Virus record (IMG/VR): IMGVR_UViG_3300028653_000024
Span: 1 to 48,916 of that record
DNA: 48,916 bases
Reading direction: 5' to 3' (one strand)
Source of the DNA: a virus
A program made the translations under genes and the position numbers. A model generated the notes under the pieces. It was not told where the DNA came from, did not search any database, and worked only from the letters and a program-made list of their open reading frames with translations. Position 1 is the first letter of the stretch; the number at the start of each line of letters is the position of its first letter. Shown here piece by piece: positions 1-48,916 of the stretch.

Positions 1-164
1 TAGTACCTTTTCTTAAAGTCTTGTAATGCGACATACTTTTCAACATGCAACTTGCCTTTTAGAGCGTACATAATCCCCGCGCCGTCTTTATTGCCTGACC
101 AACAATTTTCTATACATTTTTTAGGCAATGGTTTTTTAATTGGCTTTACTACGATAATGCACAT
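1..164 (-). CDS. Class II glutamine amidotransferase, N-terminal part (cut by window edge)
   Basis: Only the first 54 codons are inside the window. The protein begins Met-Cys-Ile, which places a cysteine right after the initiator as in Ntn-hydrolase (class II) glutamine amidotransferases. An Asn-Cys-Trp-Ser-Gly-Asn-Lys-Asp-Gly-Ala-Gly stretch around residues 20-30 matches the family pattern after the nucleophile. Such domains hydrolyse glutamine to supply ammonia. The start at 164 is preceded by CGGAGG lying in the last codons of the upstream amidoligase gene, so the two genes are translationally linked in one operon. The family call is inferred from a short N-terminus, and the rest of the gene lies outside the window. 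Confidence 0.65.
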   Translation of the reverse strand, partial: MCIIVVKPIKKPLPKKCIENCWSGNKDGAGIMYALKGKLHVEKYVALQDFKKRY

Positions 165-169
165 AATAC

Positions 170-1759
170 TTATACCTCCGTGTTAGTTGTTAATTTTCTG
201 GCCATTAGAAAAACAAATAAATTAAAATAGTCTTTTTTATTTTCATGTATGTACTTAAGAAAGTTTTTTATGGTAATACCCTGTAAGGAAGTGGTCTTTG
301 TCCATTCATATACCGCTTTAATAAATTCCATGTTTTTAAAAAAGGACATTGTTTTCAATGTTCCCCGAAAAATACGTATTTCAACTGTTTTTTCGTTTTT
401 TAAATTAATTGCCACATATCTTTCACTATTACCGGATTTATTTCGTGCCTTGTAAACAATATCTTCTTTGCTGTCTTCTAAACTTGCCCAGCGGTCAAGG
501 TGCTTTTTTTCTCTTTGGGATATTGTTGTTATAAAACCCTGATTTTTAAAAAAGAACGTCATAAACTTGTATAGGTGTATAGTCGTAAATGCCTTTTTAG
601 ATAAATGTACGTGTATCCCACAAGTACCGGGAGTATAACTTTCAAAACCTTTACGCTTTAGGTAATCGCACATAAAAGCAAATTTCTTTTTGTTTTCCAG
701 GTAATACCCCCATGAAAGGGGGTGAGTTACAATCTCAAAACCATTGTATAAAGAACCGTCTTCTTTACAATAGATAAAATCATTTCGATCAATCAAATAT
801 TCTGCCGTATCATCGTTGGTTTCTCTTTGTTTTGTGTTCTCAACTTCTAATTCAATACCGAAATACAACTCGTTCTTTTTCTCCGTATTCAATTTAAAAA
901 ATTCCGCTTCCGGCTTATAACCGTAATCATGTATATGTTCTGACTTATCTCTATAGCAACTATCACAAAATCCGTCTTGTCCATAATTATCATTGTGACA
1001 TACGTTATTACAACTTTCACAAGTAAAATAATTCTCAGCACAGCTGTCACATATTTCATTCCCGTTATTGTTTTCATAACATCCCGCGTTTTTAAACACC
1101 TTGCCGCAATCATCACAAACAGAAAATTTTTTGTCAAAACATTGCTCACAATATAGATTACAATCGCTTCCTTCTTTTGCGTCATCATTACTAACCACTT
1201 TATCACAACAATAACAAGCTAGAAAATTATCACTAAAGCAATTGTCACAATATTCATGGTTTTCCGCTTCATGTTTTTCATCATTGTCAAAATATTCCCT
1301 ACAATCGTAACATACAAAACCATCTTCCAAGCACTCAGGGCAATATTGTCGTTTTTTTCCATTATCATTTTCAATTATTTCGTCGCAATTGGCACAATGG
1401 ATAATTTTTGTTATTTCCAGGGGAAGGATTTCTTGTTTTCCGTATAGCTCTTCACACATCTTAGTGTAGTTTTCTAAAATTTCCTTTTTATTACCAAAAT
1501 AAAGAAAATATCGGTTATGTAGTATAGGTTCAATAACAGGCAAGGAAGTTTTGATTTTCTCTAACCTATTAATAAGGTTTTTTGTATTAGACCTGCCCTT
1601 TTTTGTATCATACCTGTAATTACGTATTCGGTACTTTAATTGAGATATTAAACATTCTCTTACGTATTCGGCGTTTAAAAAACGTCCTGTTTGCCTATCG
1701 ATTGCATATTTAAAATCCGGTTTTTCATCCAGGAAGGCTCCGTATTCAGTTGTAATCAT
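170..1759 (-). CDS. Amidoligase-family protein with N-terminal zinc-ribbon array
   Basis: A 529-residue protein. Residues about 297-490 carry the signature of the glutamine-synthetase-fold amidoligases (Amidoligase_2 family): GIELEVE at 301, DGSL followed by FEIVTHP near 335-347, CGIHVHLS at 380-387 and VEIRIFRGTL near 459-468. Family members are predicted to form amide bonds between amino and carboxyl groups using ATP. Residues about 122-268 hold ten CxxC pairs, i.e. about five tandem zinc knuckles or ribbons. These probably bind a protein or nucleic acid, which is inference. The first 120 residues are basic and of unknown function. The gene is followed six bases later by the glutamine amidotransferase start, which could supply ammonia to it. 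The substrate is unknown. Confidence 0.85.
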   Translation of the reverse strand: MITTEYGAFLDEKPDFKYAIDRQTGRFLNAEYVRECLISQLKYRIRNYRYDTKKGRSNTKNLINRLEKIKTSLPVIEPILHNRYFLYFGNKKEILENYTKMCEELYGKQEILPLEITKIIHCANCDEIIENDNGKKRQYCPECLEDGFVCYDCREYFDNDEKHEAENHEYCDNCFSDNFLACYCCDKVVSNDDAKEGSDCNLYCEQCFDKKFSVCDDCGKVFKNAGCYENNNGNEICDSCAENYFTCESCNNVCHNDNYGQDGFCDSCYRDKSEHIHDYGYKPEAEFFKLNTEKKNELYFGIELEVENTKQRETNDDTAEYLIDRNDFIYCKEDGSLYNGFEIVTHPLSWGYYLENKKKFAFMCDYLKRKGFESYTPGTCGIHVHLSKKAFTTIHLYKFMTFFFKNQGFITTISQREKKHLDRWASLEDSKEDIVYKARNKSGNSERYVAINLKNEKTVEIRIFRGTLKTMSFFKNMEFIKAVYEWTKTTSLQGITIKNFLKYIHENKKDYFNLFVFLMARKLTTNTEV

Positions 1760-1872: not shown

Positions 1873-2394
1873 TCACATTAAAAATAATACCTGAAAGACC
1901 ACTAAACCATTGATTTTAGCTACCCGATTTTTTGAAAAGTGAGCTAAGTCATTAGGATACATTAAAATGCCCGCTGAAACTTCATTAAGTAATTGATATT
2001 TACCAATATGTAAAAAAGCGGCAAAAATTGCCCAGTTAGATAGGCAAAAATTGCCTACTAAAAATGCGGTTTTTGTCAATATTTTTTTGTTGTAAGTCAT
2101 TGATTTTTGGTCTTTGGTGTGGTGAATGGCCGCTAAGTCGTTATTTTTTCTATATAGTATGTCCAGGGGATTTATCCTATACCTCAAAATATTCACTAAG
2201 CAGGGAAGATTTAATTTTTCGTTAAAAAAACAATGAAAATACAAATAAAATTTCCCTGTTTTTATAAAACGCCGGAAGCGCCTAATAACGAGTATTAGCG
2301 CGTCAAGCACCTTTTTCCGCGAAAACACCCCCCCTGCTCCCTGCCCTTTGTCAATCCCAGCAAAAATCGTGTTTATATTGTCTTGTGAATACAT
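1873..2394 (-). CDS. Doubtful ORF, hypothetical
   Basis: An open frame of 173 codons on the same strand as its neighbours, overlapping the end of the upstream 62-codon gene by 22 bases. A weak AAGG lies nine bases before the ATG. The product resembles no family I recognise, is rich in Phe, Leu and Ile, and the frame runs across two perfect palindromes that look like DNA sites. An Asn-Asp-Leu-Ala motif occurs twice with different codons, a slight hint of coding. Alternatively the whole 1760-2372 stretch is a non-coding control region. Confidence 0.3.
   Translation of the reverse strand: MYSQDNINTIFAGIDKGQGAGGVFSRKKVLDALILVIRRFRRFIKTGKFYLYFHCFFNEKLNLPCLVNILRYRINPLDILYRKNNDLAAIHHTKDQKSMTYNKKILTKTAFLVGNFCLSNWAIFAAFLHIGKYQLLNEVSAGILMYPNDLAHFSKNRVAKINGLVVFQVLFLM
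2020..2055. repeat. Two tandem 13-bp palindromes, 23 bp apart
   Basis: GGCAAAAATTGCC occurs at 2020-2032 and again at 2043-2055. Each copy is a perfect dyad (GGCAA-AAA-TTGCC), and the centre-to-centre distance of 23 bp is close to two helical turns. The second copy extends by one pair on each side (AGGC...GCCT) to 2042-2056. This arrangement is typical of paired operators for a dimeric repressor, but no bound protein is known. The same 23-bp spacing appears in the tandem repeat at the right end of the window. Confidence 0.5.
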
Positions 2395-34827: not shown

Positions 34828-36255
34828 CTATATTGAAAAATAACAGTTTGTTTGTTCTTGAACTATGTAAAGATTCTTTTTTGCTCTTGTAACACCCACA
34901 TAAAATACTCGTGCTTCATCATCGTAATTAGTCATCATGCTATTATAAGTTCTTTTTGAAAGGTCAGTGAACAACACCACATTTTCACTTTCCCCTCCTT
35001 TAGCCCCATGAATAGTCGATACTGTTATCCTGGGCTTTGTCACAAACGACCCTCCACGTTTACGGACGGCCAGGAAATATTCCCGATCCTCCATGCTGAT
35101 TTTATCAAGTGCCTCGAACCACGGACGGTGTTTATTCTTTTCAATATCCTTACTTGACATATAACTCAGGACATCTTTCTTATCATTATCATTTACAAGA
35201 CCTCCTTTACGAAGCTTCTCCCAATTCAAAGCAGCATCCAAAGCGTTTTCTGTGTGGTAGTCTTTCCACCGGCTTAAGTAAGTATAACCACTGAACCTGA
35301 GAAAATCAGTGATTTCTTTTATCATATACAAGTTACGAACAAGAACAAGCCACTCACCTGTTGAGAAGTCAAGGTCGTCTATGCCTGACACATACTCCAC
35401 AAACCCCGGTTCTTTCGTAGGAGCATAGGTCTTGGGCACCCGGCCTTTTATTTCCTTGACTAATGTGCTTGCTATGTTGAACACGGCCTGGGGCACCCGG
35501 TAGCTTTGCGTAAGGACAGTGGTTTTGTTAGTTGCCGCCAAACCCATGAAATATTCGATGTCAGCCCCGGACCAGCGGAAAATAGCCTGATCGTCATCCC
35601 CTGCTACATGCGTTATTCCAGAACTCTCCGATAGCCTCTCAAGGATTTTCCACTGTAGAAGGCATAAATCTTGGGCTTCGTCAACGAAAAGCACGTCTAA
35701 TTCCGGCATAACCCCTTGCTCATTGAACCGAGTGAGCATGTCCGTAAAATCATACAGGCAATTTACTTTTTTATATTTTTCATAAGTTTCTTTGAACAAC
35801 AACAAAGTATAGTAGTCAAAGTCAAGTGTTTCTTTTTTGTAAGTGATTTCCAAATCTTCACAACGCATACGTGACAAAGACTCTAAGAACACAAGCTGAT
35901 CTCCAATACTTAAATCCTCTATAGAGTACTCCAACCCACTTTTACCTTTTATTGGTACTCCTATCAAATCCCCCACTTCCATATAGTTCGACTTCTCTAC
36001 TACACTTGCTTTCATCATACTTAATTGATAAAAGGCCATAGAATGAATTGTACGGAAATAGTTAAAGTAGTCTTTATCTTGTTTAAACTTTATTGAAGCA
36101 CGGGTCTTGGCTTCTTCCACGGACTTCTTTGTAAAAGACACAAACCCTATTCTTTGTGGGTCAACACCTTTTGACAAGTATTGATCTATCAAATTTAAAA
36201 GTTCCGTGGTCTTTCCTGTTCCGGGAGGGCCTACTATTACGTTGGTGTTTTTCAT
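34828..36255 (-). CDS. UvrD/Rep-type (superfamily 1) DNA helicase
   Basis: A 475-residue protein. Walker A is GPPGTGKTT at residues 9-17, motif II is DVLFVDEAQDLC, motif III is AGDDDQAIFRWSGAD, motif V is HGAKGGESENVVLF and motif VI is YVGVTRAKKNLYIV. It is a 3'-5' unwinding enzyme of the UvrD family, shorter than cellular UvrD. The start overlaps the primase stop (ATGA), so the two are coupled in the replication operon. Confidence 0.9.
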   Translation of the reverse strand: MKNTNVIVGPPGTGKTTELLNLIDQYLSKGVDPQRIGFVSFTKKSVEEAKTRASIKFKQDKDYFNYFRTIHSMAFYQLSMMKASVVEKSNYMEVGDLIGVPIKGKSGLEYSIEDLSIGDQLVFLESLSRMRCEDLEITYKKETLDFDYYTLLLFKETYEKYKKVNCLYDFTDMLTRFNEQGVMPELDVLFVDEAQDLCLLQWKILERLSESSGITHVAGDDDQAIFRWSGADIEYFMGLAATNKTTVLTQSYRVPQAVFNIASTLVKEIKGRVPKTYAPTKEPGFVEYVSGIDDLDFSTGEWLVLVRNLYMIKEITDFLRFSGYTYLSRWKDYHTENALDAALNWEKLRKGGLVNDNDKKDVLSYMSSKDIEKNKHRPWFEALDKISMEDREYFLAVRKRGGSFVTKPRITVSTIHGAKGGESENVVLFTDLSKRTYNSMMTNYDDEARVFYVGVTRAKKNLYIVQEQTNCYFSI

Positions 36256-37769
36256 AAGATGTTTTTATCCTCAATATCGGGTACTTTATATTTTTCTTCT
36301 TTCAATCTATTAAACCTTGGAAACTTCCATATTTGTCTACTGACCCCTTTTATACTTACTGGTTGGTGCTTCCCTCCATCTTCCTGTAATATAGAAGCAA
36401 TGTTTTGTATCTTAAATTCCTTGAACCTAATGCGTTCAAGATAAGAATAAAAGTCCGATAACCTAAACCAATGATAATCCTCGTCAGTCCATGCTTTTCC
36501 CCGAAGTATTTCTTCTTTGTCTCTTGCCTGGACATTAGAAGTACAAAACTTTTCAAGATGCTCGAACAACAGCCCTTTTAAAGAAGCGTCTTTAGGAACA
36601 GCCAAGACTTCCACTTCTGACATCAACTCCTGAATGGTCATTTGCCATTGTTCTTTGGACATTACTACCGGGATAACGTTCAATGACTCCATGCAGCGCC
36701 GTTGAAAGTTTGCTTGCTTCTGTAAATCCTCAGTTGTCAACTCCAATCGCCCCATACCAACAACCTCAACAAACCAAATCGGAGGCTCTGTGTCGTACTT
36801 CTTCAAGTCCCTTAGAACAACATGACCTGATTCCCCACCTATTCCGAACTCTCTCTGTATACATATTGCCCTGTTGCAATAGTTTTTTAACGGAGACCTT
36901 GAGCAACCATAACGATACCCTTTTTTTCTTATGCTGTTTATGATTAAAGTCAACTCCTCCTCTGGTATAGGAGGAACGACTGAGTTTGCATTGTAATCTT
37001 TAAGTGTTATTGGCCAACCGTCTTCATCTTTTTTTCTTAAATACAAACCAAGCTGAAATAAAGACAGGTTCCTAATCCCAATCTTAAACCCCTGAGAGAC
37101 CATATTCTGTAGGCAAGGAGGGCCGTCTTCAACGGATATATCCCCAATAATAGAAAATGCTTCAAACTCTTTTAACGTCCATCTTTTATTGTTTACAACC
37201 GTGAAAAAGTCTTCGATTAGTAGTTGCTTTGCATCAACAGAATAAGCGTATCTTTCAGTATTGGGCTCATCAAAATAAGGAAGGTTTATCCAGCTTCCAA
37301 CATCCCCTCTGTCGGACATCAAAGATGTTTGTTTTGGGAAAATCTCACAAGAACCAAAACCAAGATAAGAGGCCATCATTTGCAGTTTACTTTGCATGAG
37401 GCTTGCGGGGATTTCTTCTCTTACAAAACAATACAGGTGTAGACCCCCGCTCTTGGTCCGGCAGGGAACCAACGGAAACCCCTCCCTGCTTATTCTATAA
37501 ATAACTTTCTTTATGTCAAGACCTTTATAAACATCGATGTCTATAGCCCCAAAAATACAAGTAGCATTGTCCGTGATTGGGACTATGCCAAGACCTGTGA
37601 CCCCTGATAGATGCCGGTCCCAAACTTCATCGGTTATTCGCTTAGATATAGTGTTCGCTTGTCCTGTAAACTTTTCTCCTTCTACTCCTTCTCCTTTCAA
37701 CTGATACTGGCCATAGGCCCGTTGTAAACCTGAGAATATTTCTTTGAAAGGAGTTAAGTATTGATTCAT
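36252..37769 (-). CDS. Archaeo-eukaryotic-type primase (TOTE-like AEP)
   Basis: A 505-residue protein. The catalytic DxD motif is in FGAIDIDVYKG (D77, D79), the s-x-H motif is in TKSGGLHLYCF (H111), and CEIFPKQTSL follows. This matches AEP primases like the TOTE conflict-system domain. The C-terminal half is probably a PriCT-like helical and zinc-binding region (CSRSPLKNYCNRAICIQ). It makes primers for the family A polymerase. The start follows an AGGTATAAA leader. Confidence 0.8.
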   Translation of the reverse strand: MNQYLTPFKEIFSGLQRAYGQYQLKGEGVEGEKFTGQANTISKRITDEVWDRHLSGVTGLGIVPITDNATCIFGAIDIDVYKGLDIKKVIYRISREGFPLVPCRTKSGGLHLYCFVREEIPASLMQSKLQMMASYLGFGSCEIFPKQTSLMSDRGDVGSWINLPYFDEPNTERYAYSVDAKQLLIEDFFTVVNNKRWTLKEFEAFSIIGDISVEDGPPCLQNMVSQGFKIGIRNLSLFQLGLYLRKKDEDGWPITLKDYNANSVVPPIPEEELTLIINSIRKKGYRYGCSRSPLKNYCNRAICIQREFGIGGESGHVVLRDLKKYDTEPPIWFVEVVGMGRLELTTEDLQKQANFQRRCMESLNVIPVVMSKEQWQMTIQELMSEVEVLAVPKDASLKGLLFEHLEKFCTSNVQARDKEEILRGKAWTDEDYHWFRLSDFYSYLERIRFKEFKIQNIASILQEDGGKHQPVSIKGVSRQIWKFPRFNRLKEEKYKVPDIEDKNIL

Positions 37770-38052: not shown

Positions 38053-38886
38053 TTAGAAGTGTTCCGCCGCTTTAGATGTATCGACACCAACAACCCCATC
38101 CGATTCAACTGGGACAGCGGACTTGACCGCTCCGCTGGTAACATCGGAATAGAACTTCTTGGCATCCTGGTACAGTTCAGCGTTCTTTGGGTCTTGGGCA
38201 TAAAGAATTGGGCTTCCAACTATGTAACCATACCACGAACCACGGTCATTACTCTCCTCAACCGCACTAATAGCGTAAGAGTGCGAATACATCGGGGGAG
38301 TGAACTTCCGACCTTTGTAACTGACTTGCAGACTTAACATCTGCGAAAGCCAATTACGGCTCTTTTTAAGCTGCGTACTGGTCATGGAAAGAACAATCCG
38401 CTCAAACCCACCGTCTTCTTTTACAAGAAGGCACCAGTGCTTGGCCGTAGGGACAACGAGATTGCCATTAGGCAATACATCAACGTTCTTCTCATTTTTC
38501 TTTGTGCCATTGAGAATGGCACTATCGATATATTCCTTGACAAACCCACCCCCTTGTTCCCTGGGCACCCACTCAATATAAACCTTCTGGAAAGCGCAGG
38601 GGATTACGGTGATGTGGTCCTTATACCGAGCATGGGTCACTGTATTGTAGAACTCCCCGGCAACTGCTCCGGGTATCTTCGTAGGGCCATGACACTGAGG
38701 GCTATTGGACTGTAGCACCCGGATAAACGGAATGGCTATATCTTCCGGGCGAACGTTCTCAAACCCGCTTTGCCCCAAATCCTCCATAAACCCCTGCTCC
38801 GCTGGTAGTCCGGCAGGGGCCTGTACTGCAACAGCTTTTTTAGTGTCCATGTCGGACGCTCCTTTTTTGTTTGTTTTGTTGTTCAT
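38053..38886 (-). CDS. Probable ssDNA-binding protein of phage replication
   Basis: A 277-residue protein of a family common in phage replication regions: PFIRVLQSNSPQC near residues 53-65, then VTHARYKDHITVIPCAFQKVYIEWVPREQGGGF, and SYAISAVEESNDRGSWYGYIV. It ends DTSKAAEHF. It is often annotated as hypothetical, and its partner genes suggest ssDNA binding or annealing. Two starts are possible: 38886 behind the AAAGAAAGAAGAG leader seen at neighbouring genes, and 38850 behind a perfect AAGGAG. The assigned function is inference. Confidence 0.6.
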   Translation of the reverse strand: MNNKTNKKGASDMDTKKAVAVQAPAGLPAEQGFMEDLGQSGFENVRPEDIAIPFIRVLQSNSPQCHGPTKIPGAVAGEFYNTVTHARYKDHITVIPCAFQKVYIEWVPREQGGGFVKEYIDSAILNGTKKNEKNVDVLPNGNLVVPTAKHWCLLVKEDGGFERIVLSMTSTQLKKSRNWLSQMLSLQVSYKGRKFTPPMYSHSYAISAVEESNDRGSWYGYIVGSPILYAQDPKNAELYQDAKKFYSDVTSGAVKSAVPVESDGVVGVDTSKAAEHF

Positions 38887-38909
38887 ACGACTCTTCTTTC
38901 TTTTAAAGG

Positions 38910-39545
38910 TTACTTAACTTTTGTTGACCGTAAAGGATACACTTTAAACAACTCTTTAGGGAAATCCGCTCCTGATTCAATTTGTTCTTTTACAAATGAA
39001 TAAAGGGTTTGTGGGTGGACGTAGGTTTTGTCTTTGTAAAGCAACCCCAATTTTTCTAAAAGTTTTGTGAGGGTTTCATGGGCTTTTGATTCTCCTTTCT
39101 TTATGTCAGCCTCTACTTTGTGTTTAATGATGCTTTCGTGTCCATTGTCCTTTAACCAAGAGAAGCAGTTATCGGAATTTTCCTCAGTGATCGAAGCCGT
39201 ATACTTGAGATTCACTTCCACTGTACGGCCATCTTGTAGTGTAAACTTCTTCATCCCCAATTCGTCAAATAGGTCGGGGATCAGTAGGTTGTTGTATTGA
39301 GCGAAATCCTCATTGGCCTTAGACAACTCCTCAGTGGCTTTTGCAATTCGGTCCTGGGCTTTGTCCATTTTTTCAAGAAGATCGGACAATTCTGAGAGTT
39401 TTTCGGTCTTGGGGATTTCCTTTACAACCGACTCACTGTCTTCCATCATTTCATCCATAAAAACAGAGTTCTTAGGGAGGTTTTCTATAACCACTTTACT
39501 TGCTTTAGCTACTTCTTCACTATAATTAAAAGCTTTCTTTGACAT
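38910..39545 (-). CDS. Conserved phage coiled-coil protein
   Basis: A 211-residue protein. A coiled coil (about 48-88, LSELSDLLEKMDKAQDRIAKATEELSK) is followed by a globular half with LIPDLFDELGMKKFTLQDGRTVEV and YVHPQTLYSFVKEQIESGADFPKELFKVY. This pattern recurs beside ssDNA-binding-like genes in many phages; a function has not been established. It overlaps the upstream gene by 20 bases. Confidence 0.6.
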   Translation of the reverse strand: MSKKAFNYSEEVAKASKVVIENLPKNSVFMDEMMEDSESVVKEIPKTEKLSELSDLLEKMDKAQDRIAKATEELSKANEDFAQYNNLLIPDLFDELGMKKFTLQDGRTVEVNLKYTASITEENSDNCFSWLKDNGHESIIKHKVEADIKKGESKAHETLTKLLEKLGLLYKDKTYVHPQTLYSFVKEQIESGADFPKELFKVYPLRSTKVK

Positions 39546-48741: not shown

Positions 48742-48771
48742 AATATACACTTTTTACCGGCCTCTTGGCAA
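48742..48771 (-). promoter_or_regulatory. Promoter for the leftward regulatory genes
   Basis: On the minus strand, TTGCCA at 48771-48766, an 18-base spacer and TATATT at 48747-48742. The -35 box overlaps the first unit of the 23-bp tandem repeat. Strong match to the consensus (five of six in each box). Confidence 0.55.
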
Positions 48772-48916
48772 GACGGTCACTGGCCCGAAGGCAAGACGGT
48801 CACTGGCCTAAGGGCAAGCGGATCACTGGCCTAAGGGCAAGCGGATCACTGGCCTAAGGGCAAGCGGATCACTGGCCTAAGGGCAAGCGGATCACTGGCC
48901 TAAGGGCAAGCGGATC
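48767..48916. repeat. 23-bp tandem repeat at the window edge
   Basis: Six full units of 23 bp (48767-48789, -48812, -48835, -48858, -48881, -48904) and a 12-base partial unit to the end. The later units begin GGCAAGCGGATCAC and end GGCCTAAG; the first two are diverged (GGCAAGACGGTCAC). The array continues beyond the window. It abuts a leftward promoter, so it may be an operator array, iterons of an origin, or a repeat that stopped the assembly. Confidence 0.85.

Follow-up and report, generated by a model that had tools for sequence, protein, structure and literature searches.

Paired amidoligase and class II glutamine amidotransferase genes at the end of a viral contig: a candidate two-component amidating ligase

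The two genes and their products

The window analysed here is the whole 48,916-nucleotide stretch of the IMG/VR record IMGVR_UViG_3300028653_000024. At its left end, on the minus strand, lie an amidoligase gene and, directly downstream of it, the beginning of a class II glutamine amidotransferase gene, with the following features:

170..1759, minus strand: amidoligase gene, 529 aa with an ATG start (Amidoligase_2, PHROG 16683, AF2 model)
956..1396, minus strand: acidic zinc-finger-like array, residues 122-268, with ten CxxC motifs in five paired units
200..913, minus strand: ligase domain, residues 283-520 (AF2 and Foldseek)
839..859, minus strand: GIELEVE motif (E303, E305), residues 301-307; G, E and E in 87/87 family members
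599..622, minus strand: CGIHVHLS motif (H383, H385), residues 380-387; both His in 87/87
362..385, minus strand: VEIRIFRG motif (E460, R462), residues 459-466; E and R in 87/87
3..164, minus strand: first 54 codons of the class II glutamine amidotransferase gene, truncated at the edge of the contig (profile E = 1.4e-8)

A Pfam profile search matched the 529-residue protein to Amidoligase_2 (PF12224) with 36.8 bits against a cut-off of 22 (E = 5.1e-9), confirming the assignment that a sequence-only reading had made from the three motifs; this open reading frame gave the only match to the family in the whole record. The protein also matches PHROG 16683 (E = 4e-38) and PHROG 22302, both listed as of unknown function, and more weakly PHROG 2443, 'amidoligase'. 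The AF2 model of the full-length ligase has a mean pLDDT of 83.9, and that of residues 276-529, with a pLDDT of 95.2 and a pTM of 0.92, shows the fold whose absence would, on the sequence-only reading, have refuted the proposal. Using Foldseek, we found that the ligase domain resembles YbdK (2.4e-5), Dop, GmaS, PafA, plant glutamate-cysteine ligase and glutamine synthetase, with modest TM-scores to PDB entries of 0.36-0.53 on the query. In a viral structure library, the named top matches were phage amidoligases and a Mycobacterium phage Tesla protein. From these models we predict with confidence a glutamine-synthetase/carboxylate-amine-ligase fold, which the domain would share with the YbdK/glutamate-cysteine ligase/glutamine synthetase superfamily at 10-14% identity in the structural matches; unlike those enzymes, the window ligase is fused to a zinc-finger-like array. 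As this fold is common to enzymes attaching ammonia, methylamine, cysteine or Pup, it does not fix the amine that is used. The residues GxExE, D, S, E, HxH, R and ExR are invariant in all 87 family members compared, and ExE, HxH and ExR are those that we take to correspond to the active-site residues of glutamine synthetase. No assayed enzyme of this ligase subfamily was found in the literature searched.

With the full-length model, Foldseek matched the array to the LIM domains of PINCH-1. Its units have the form CX2C-X(14-19)-CX2C and are separated by about 6-8 residues, a spacing that departs from the LIM definition (two zinc fingers, a two-residue linker and usually a His ligand), and we therefore call the array LIM-like only. 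The region is strongly acidic, with a net charge of -22 over residues 118-275. In a freshwater clade (read at loci L023, L032 and L040), the region has lost its CxxC pairs but is still strongly acidic, suggesting a greater importance of the acidic surface than of the metal. Indirectly, an acidic array of this kind favours a protein or peptide as the substrate.

The amidotransferase fragment starts with Met-Cys at position 164, reaches the contig end at base 3 and carries an N-x-D-G-x-G motif as in its relatives. The profile that matches it was built from six isolate-phage and scaffold proteins only, with the window fragment left out, and in the alignment the fragment is 41% identical to MEP402 gp07; searched alone, it matched no Pfam and no PHROG family. 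These results uphold the class II assignment of the sequence-only reading and its operon-like pair. Five bases (165-169) separate the ligase stop codon from the amidotransferase ATG, which begins at the sixth base after the stop, in agreement with the six-base spacing described earlier. Attempts to extend the contig yielded no further sequence of this gene: the window is the complete record, and the one near-identical contig, found via the terminase (L088), ends at window position 2260. The right end of the window (48767-48916) consists of 6.5 copies of a 23-bp tandem repeat, which is probably the reason why the assembly stopped.

Pairing and co-divergence in phages and bacteria

Scanning viral contigs with an alignment of ligases yielded 79 loci, while a scan with the single ligase sequence gave none. 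In 78 of the 79, the ligase has a class II amidotransferase nearby in the same orientation, downstream in 77 and upstream in one (L070), with a typical gap of -10 to +21 bases; the sole ligase of this set without such a partner is at L058. As a control, an amidotransferase was present in 0 of 18 loci fetched via the terminase of the window. The pairing is thus beyond chance. In bacteria, 73 of 80 loci carry the amidotransferase, and since four of the seven partnerless ones end no more than 140 bases from the ligase, the usable count is 73/76. The loci are partly non-independent, as the 87 ligases first compared form 53 clusters at 60% identity. The two families also diverge together: their distances correlate with r = 0.91 over all pairs and 0.61 over distant pairs, and none of 500 permutations reached the observed r or exceeded 0.14. 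No natural fusion of the ligase with the amidotransferase was seen in the viral loci, and neither protein matched the PADLOC defence-system models. Clostridioides difficile phage AR1086-1 (L006, 5001-5732) encodes a ligase relative with neither a CxxC array nor an adjoining amidotransferase.

The glutaminase residues of class II enzymes are preserved in the relatives, with Cys2 in 85/85 and Arg70, Asn96-Gly97 and Asp111 in 84/84, the last three sites lying beyond the 54 residues present in the window. Against the PDB, the amidotransferase profile matched the glutaminase domains of GlmS and PurF with E down to 8e-16. Most relatives are 240-330 aa long, too short to hold a known synthase domain, and the acceptor enzyme would most simply be the neighbouring ligase. 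Judged from these sequences, the amidotransferase is a likely ammonia donor, as the sequence-only reading had proposed. A further CxxC motif is found in the C-terminal part of 64 of 82 amidotransferases. At L033 (6676-7749) and L072 (7039-8277), the residue before the conserved Cys is Ile rather than Met, which points to a rare start codon of the isoleucine type.

The same reading had raised the possibility of a novel system, which does not hold, because the adjacent pair is annotated as gp105/gp106 in mycobacteriophage Marvin and as gp06/gp07 in Methylophilales phage MEP402 and has been in the literature since a 2009 study. Both families occur there in the order and adjacency of the window, with a 79-base gap in Marvin and overlapping genes in MEP402. 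Their ligases are 25-26% identical to that of the window, whose closest viral relative reaches 44% over the aligned part. The Marvin array is shorter and MEP402 has few CxxC pairs, whereas the window ligase carries ten CxxC motifs as well as an additional N-terminal region. PMC10580990 places the genes in MEP401, MEP402 and more than 30 metagenomic relatives.

Larger clusters of the phiEco32/LUZ24/HP1 type combine ATP-grasp, COOH-NH2 ligase, amidoligase, amidotransferase and gamma-glutamyl cyclotransferase genes. HP1 and UFV-P2 resemble the window in having an amidoligase and a class II amidotransferase, but clusters of this type differ from it in their several further enzymes and in the PHROGs of their ligases (2443, 7469 and 7631). 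The relatives of the window pair mostly have none of these extra enzymes, although in the window itself the contig stops before the second gene is complete. Of the 79 viral pairs, only 3 have ATP-grasp and gamma-glutamyl cyclotransferase relatives nearby, and the viral loci showed no further enzyme recurring beside the pair. Taken together, sequence comparison places the window pair as a diverged two-gene, zinc-array example of an already known kind.

Genomic setting and mobile elements

The recurrent neighbours of the pair in viral loci include genes for primase/helicase, SSB and PD-(D/E)XK nucleases. In the window, the pair points away from a rightward block with terminase, portal and capsid genes, and leftward replication genes lie at 33-48 kb; if the genome is circular or permuted, these would follow the pair. 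The gene order fits, without proving, early expression of the pair, and it supports the early position suggested before, at the start of an early/replication gene block. Promoter-like sites in the region (21 seen against 15.2 expected, sd 3.8) were given no weight, and the open reading frame at 1873-2394 (minus strand) has no Pfam family match. The primase encoded at 36252-37769 (minus strand) matches PF22548 (E = 1e-12), which is the archaeo-eukaryotic primase domain found in TOTE conflict systems, and Pam3 gp33/gp34-like genes are found at 38053-39545 (minus strand).

At L107, the pair sits between a divergent terminase small subunit gene and replication genes. This phage contig, with genes for a terminase small subunit, a DnaB helicase and a primase, was assigned to the bin of a Lokiarchaeota genome. 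As a phage contig inside a metagenome bin has an uncertain host, we dropped the locus as evidence against a cell-wall target.

In Clostridia, the pair is accompanied by integrases, serine recombinases, relaxases and DUF960/DUF3846 genes, which indicates that it is cargo of mobile elements generally and not of phages alone. Of 64 bacterial loci, 38 encode a small serine recombinase of ~190-200 aa (Resolvase, PF00239) near the pair, usually in the same orientation and 1-2.5 kb after the ligase (e.g. L118, L120, L122 and L143). Butyricicoccus pullicaecorum has several copies of the pair; five copies of ~2.5 kb with both genes (L142, L148, L151, L173 and L181) are 86-88% identical to one another and have unrelated flanks, and a DUF960 gene was read in front of the pair in L142. 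A TATAAT-like box and a hairpin leader mark the start of the shared stretch. We considered a small transposable unit and rejected it, as the shared part of ~2.5 kb starts at this promoter-like leader and not at recognisable transposon ends. Directly 3' of the amidotransferase, a conserved open reading frame of 22-28 aa encodes a hydrophobic body with an acidic C-terminal tail (e.g. MGFGTILVVIGEIIDLLEEDDDD). It was seen in Butyricicoccus/Intestinibacillus copies only (L142, L145, L148, L151, L154, L162, L173, L181 and L182), and its product is a possible peptide substrate of the pair.

A candidate glutamine-dependent amidating ligase

Separate glutaminases that feed an ATP-dependent, carboxylate-activating enzyme are known from the tRNA-dependent GatCAB and GatDE and from MurT-GatD. 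These are analogous to the window pair in the way they would work only, since their glutaminases come from other families, and neither system was matched in searches with the window proteins. On balance, we favour the reading that the products of the two genes work as a single glutamine-dependent amidating ligase of two components, which would act on a host molecule through protein or peptide docking. The amidotransferase would hydrolyse glutamine with its N-terminal Cys nucleophile and pass the released ammonia to the ligase, presumably within a complex of the two proteins. The ligase would activate a carboxylate with ATP by means of its glutamine-synthetase-like fold and form an amide on it, and the array ahead of the ligase domain probably docks the protein or peptide substrate. 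Given the place of the pair at the start of the early/replication block, the modification probably falls on a host molecule during takeover.

Other roles have been proposed for such genes. The 2009 comparative study, as cited in PMC10580990, suggested a cell-wall or superinfection role for phiEco32, a suggestion repeated in PMC11318856, and PMC3267633 describes MurT-GatD as a glutaminase and ligase able to amidate wall peptides. The pair could accordingly modify, for example amidate, host peptidoglycan stem peptides with a MurT-GatD-like outcome and so exclude superinfecting phages. We regard this as unlikely, as an acidic zinc-finger-like array would be unexpected in an enzyme of small wall precursors and the recurrent neighbours of the pair include no recognisable wall-related gene. 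For Phage-ZRK32, PMC10945688 proposes a role in nitrogen metabolism; the genes of that phage encode an amidotransferase, an amidoligase, a glutathione synthase and a cyclotransferase. Auxiliary metabolic genes that boost nitrogen assimilation of the infected cell nevertheless seem a very improbable explanation of the pair, because the growth data for that phage do not single out these genes and a large substrate-docking array appears ill-suited to a bulk metabolic enzyme.

PMC10580990 cites the Marvin paper for secondary metabolites. In a further reading, the pair would serve small-molecule or peptide synthesis: the amine that the ligase joins to a carboxylate would be an amino acid, another amine or a peptide in place of ammonia, and the class II domain would be an amidase or transferase that helps to make or trim the product. 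Among the closest solved folds are enzymes that use other amines (YbdK, glutamate-cysteine ligase, GmaS and the Pup ligase PafA), and the HP1 and UFV-P2 clusters add ATP-grasp and cyclotransferase enzymes. However, such enzymes are almost absent beside the two-gene form, and the complete set of glutaminase residues in the family fits ammonia release, making this role, in our estimate, quite improbable.

We return to the two-component amidating ligase as the preferred reading. A more specific version of it, in which the zinc-array ligase and glutaminase are a post-translational amidation or tagging system for host proteins in phages and Clostridial mobile elements, is put forward tentatively, as a possibility about which we are doubtful. 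If true, host-protein amidation would be a glutamine-dependent route beside those of the GatCAB and MurT-GatD types, one that combines a class II glutaminase with a carboxylate-amine-ligase fold. The minimal form of the enzyme pair would need two proteins, glutamine and ATP. The presence of a near-obligate enzyme pair in very different phages and in mobile elements of gut Clostridia implies that the chemical modification it makes is a useful one.
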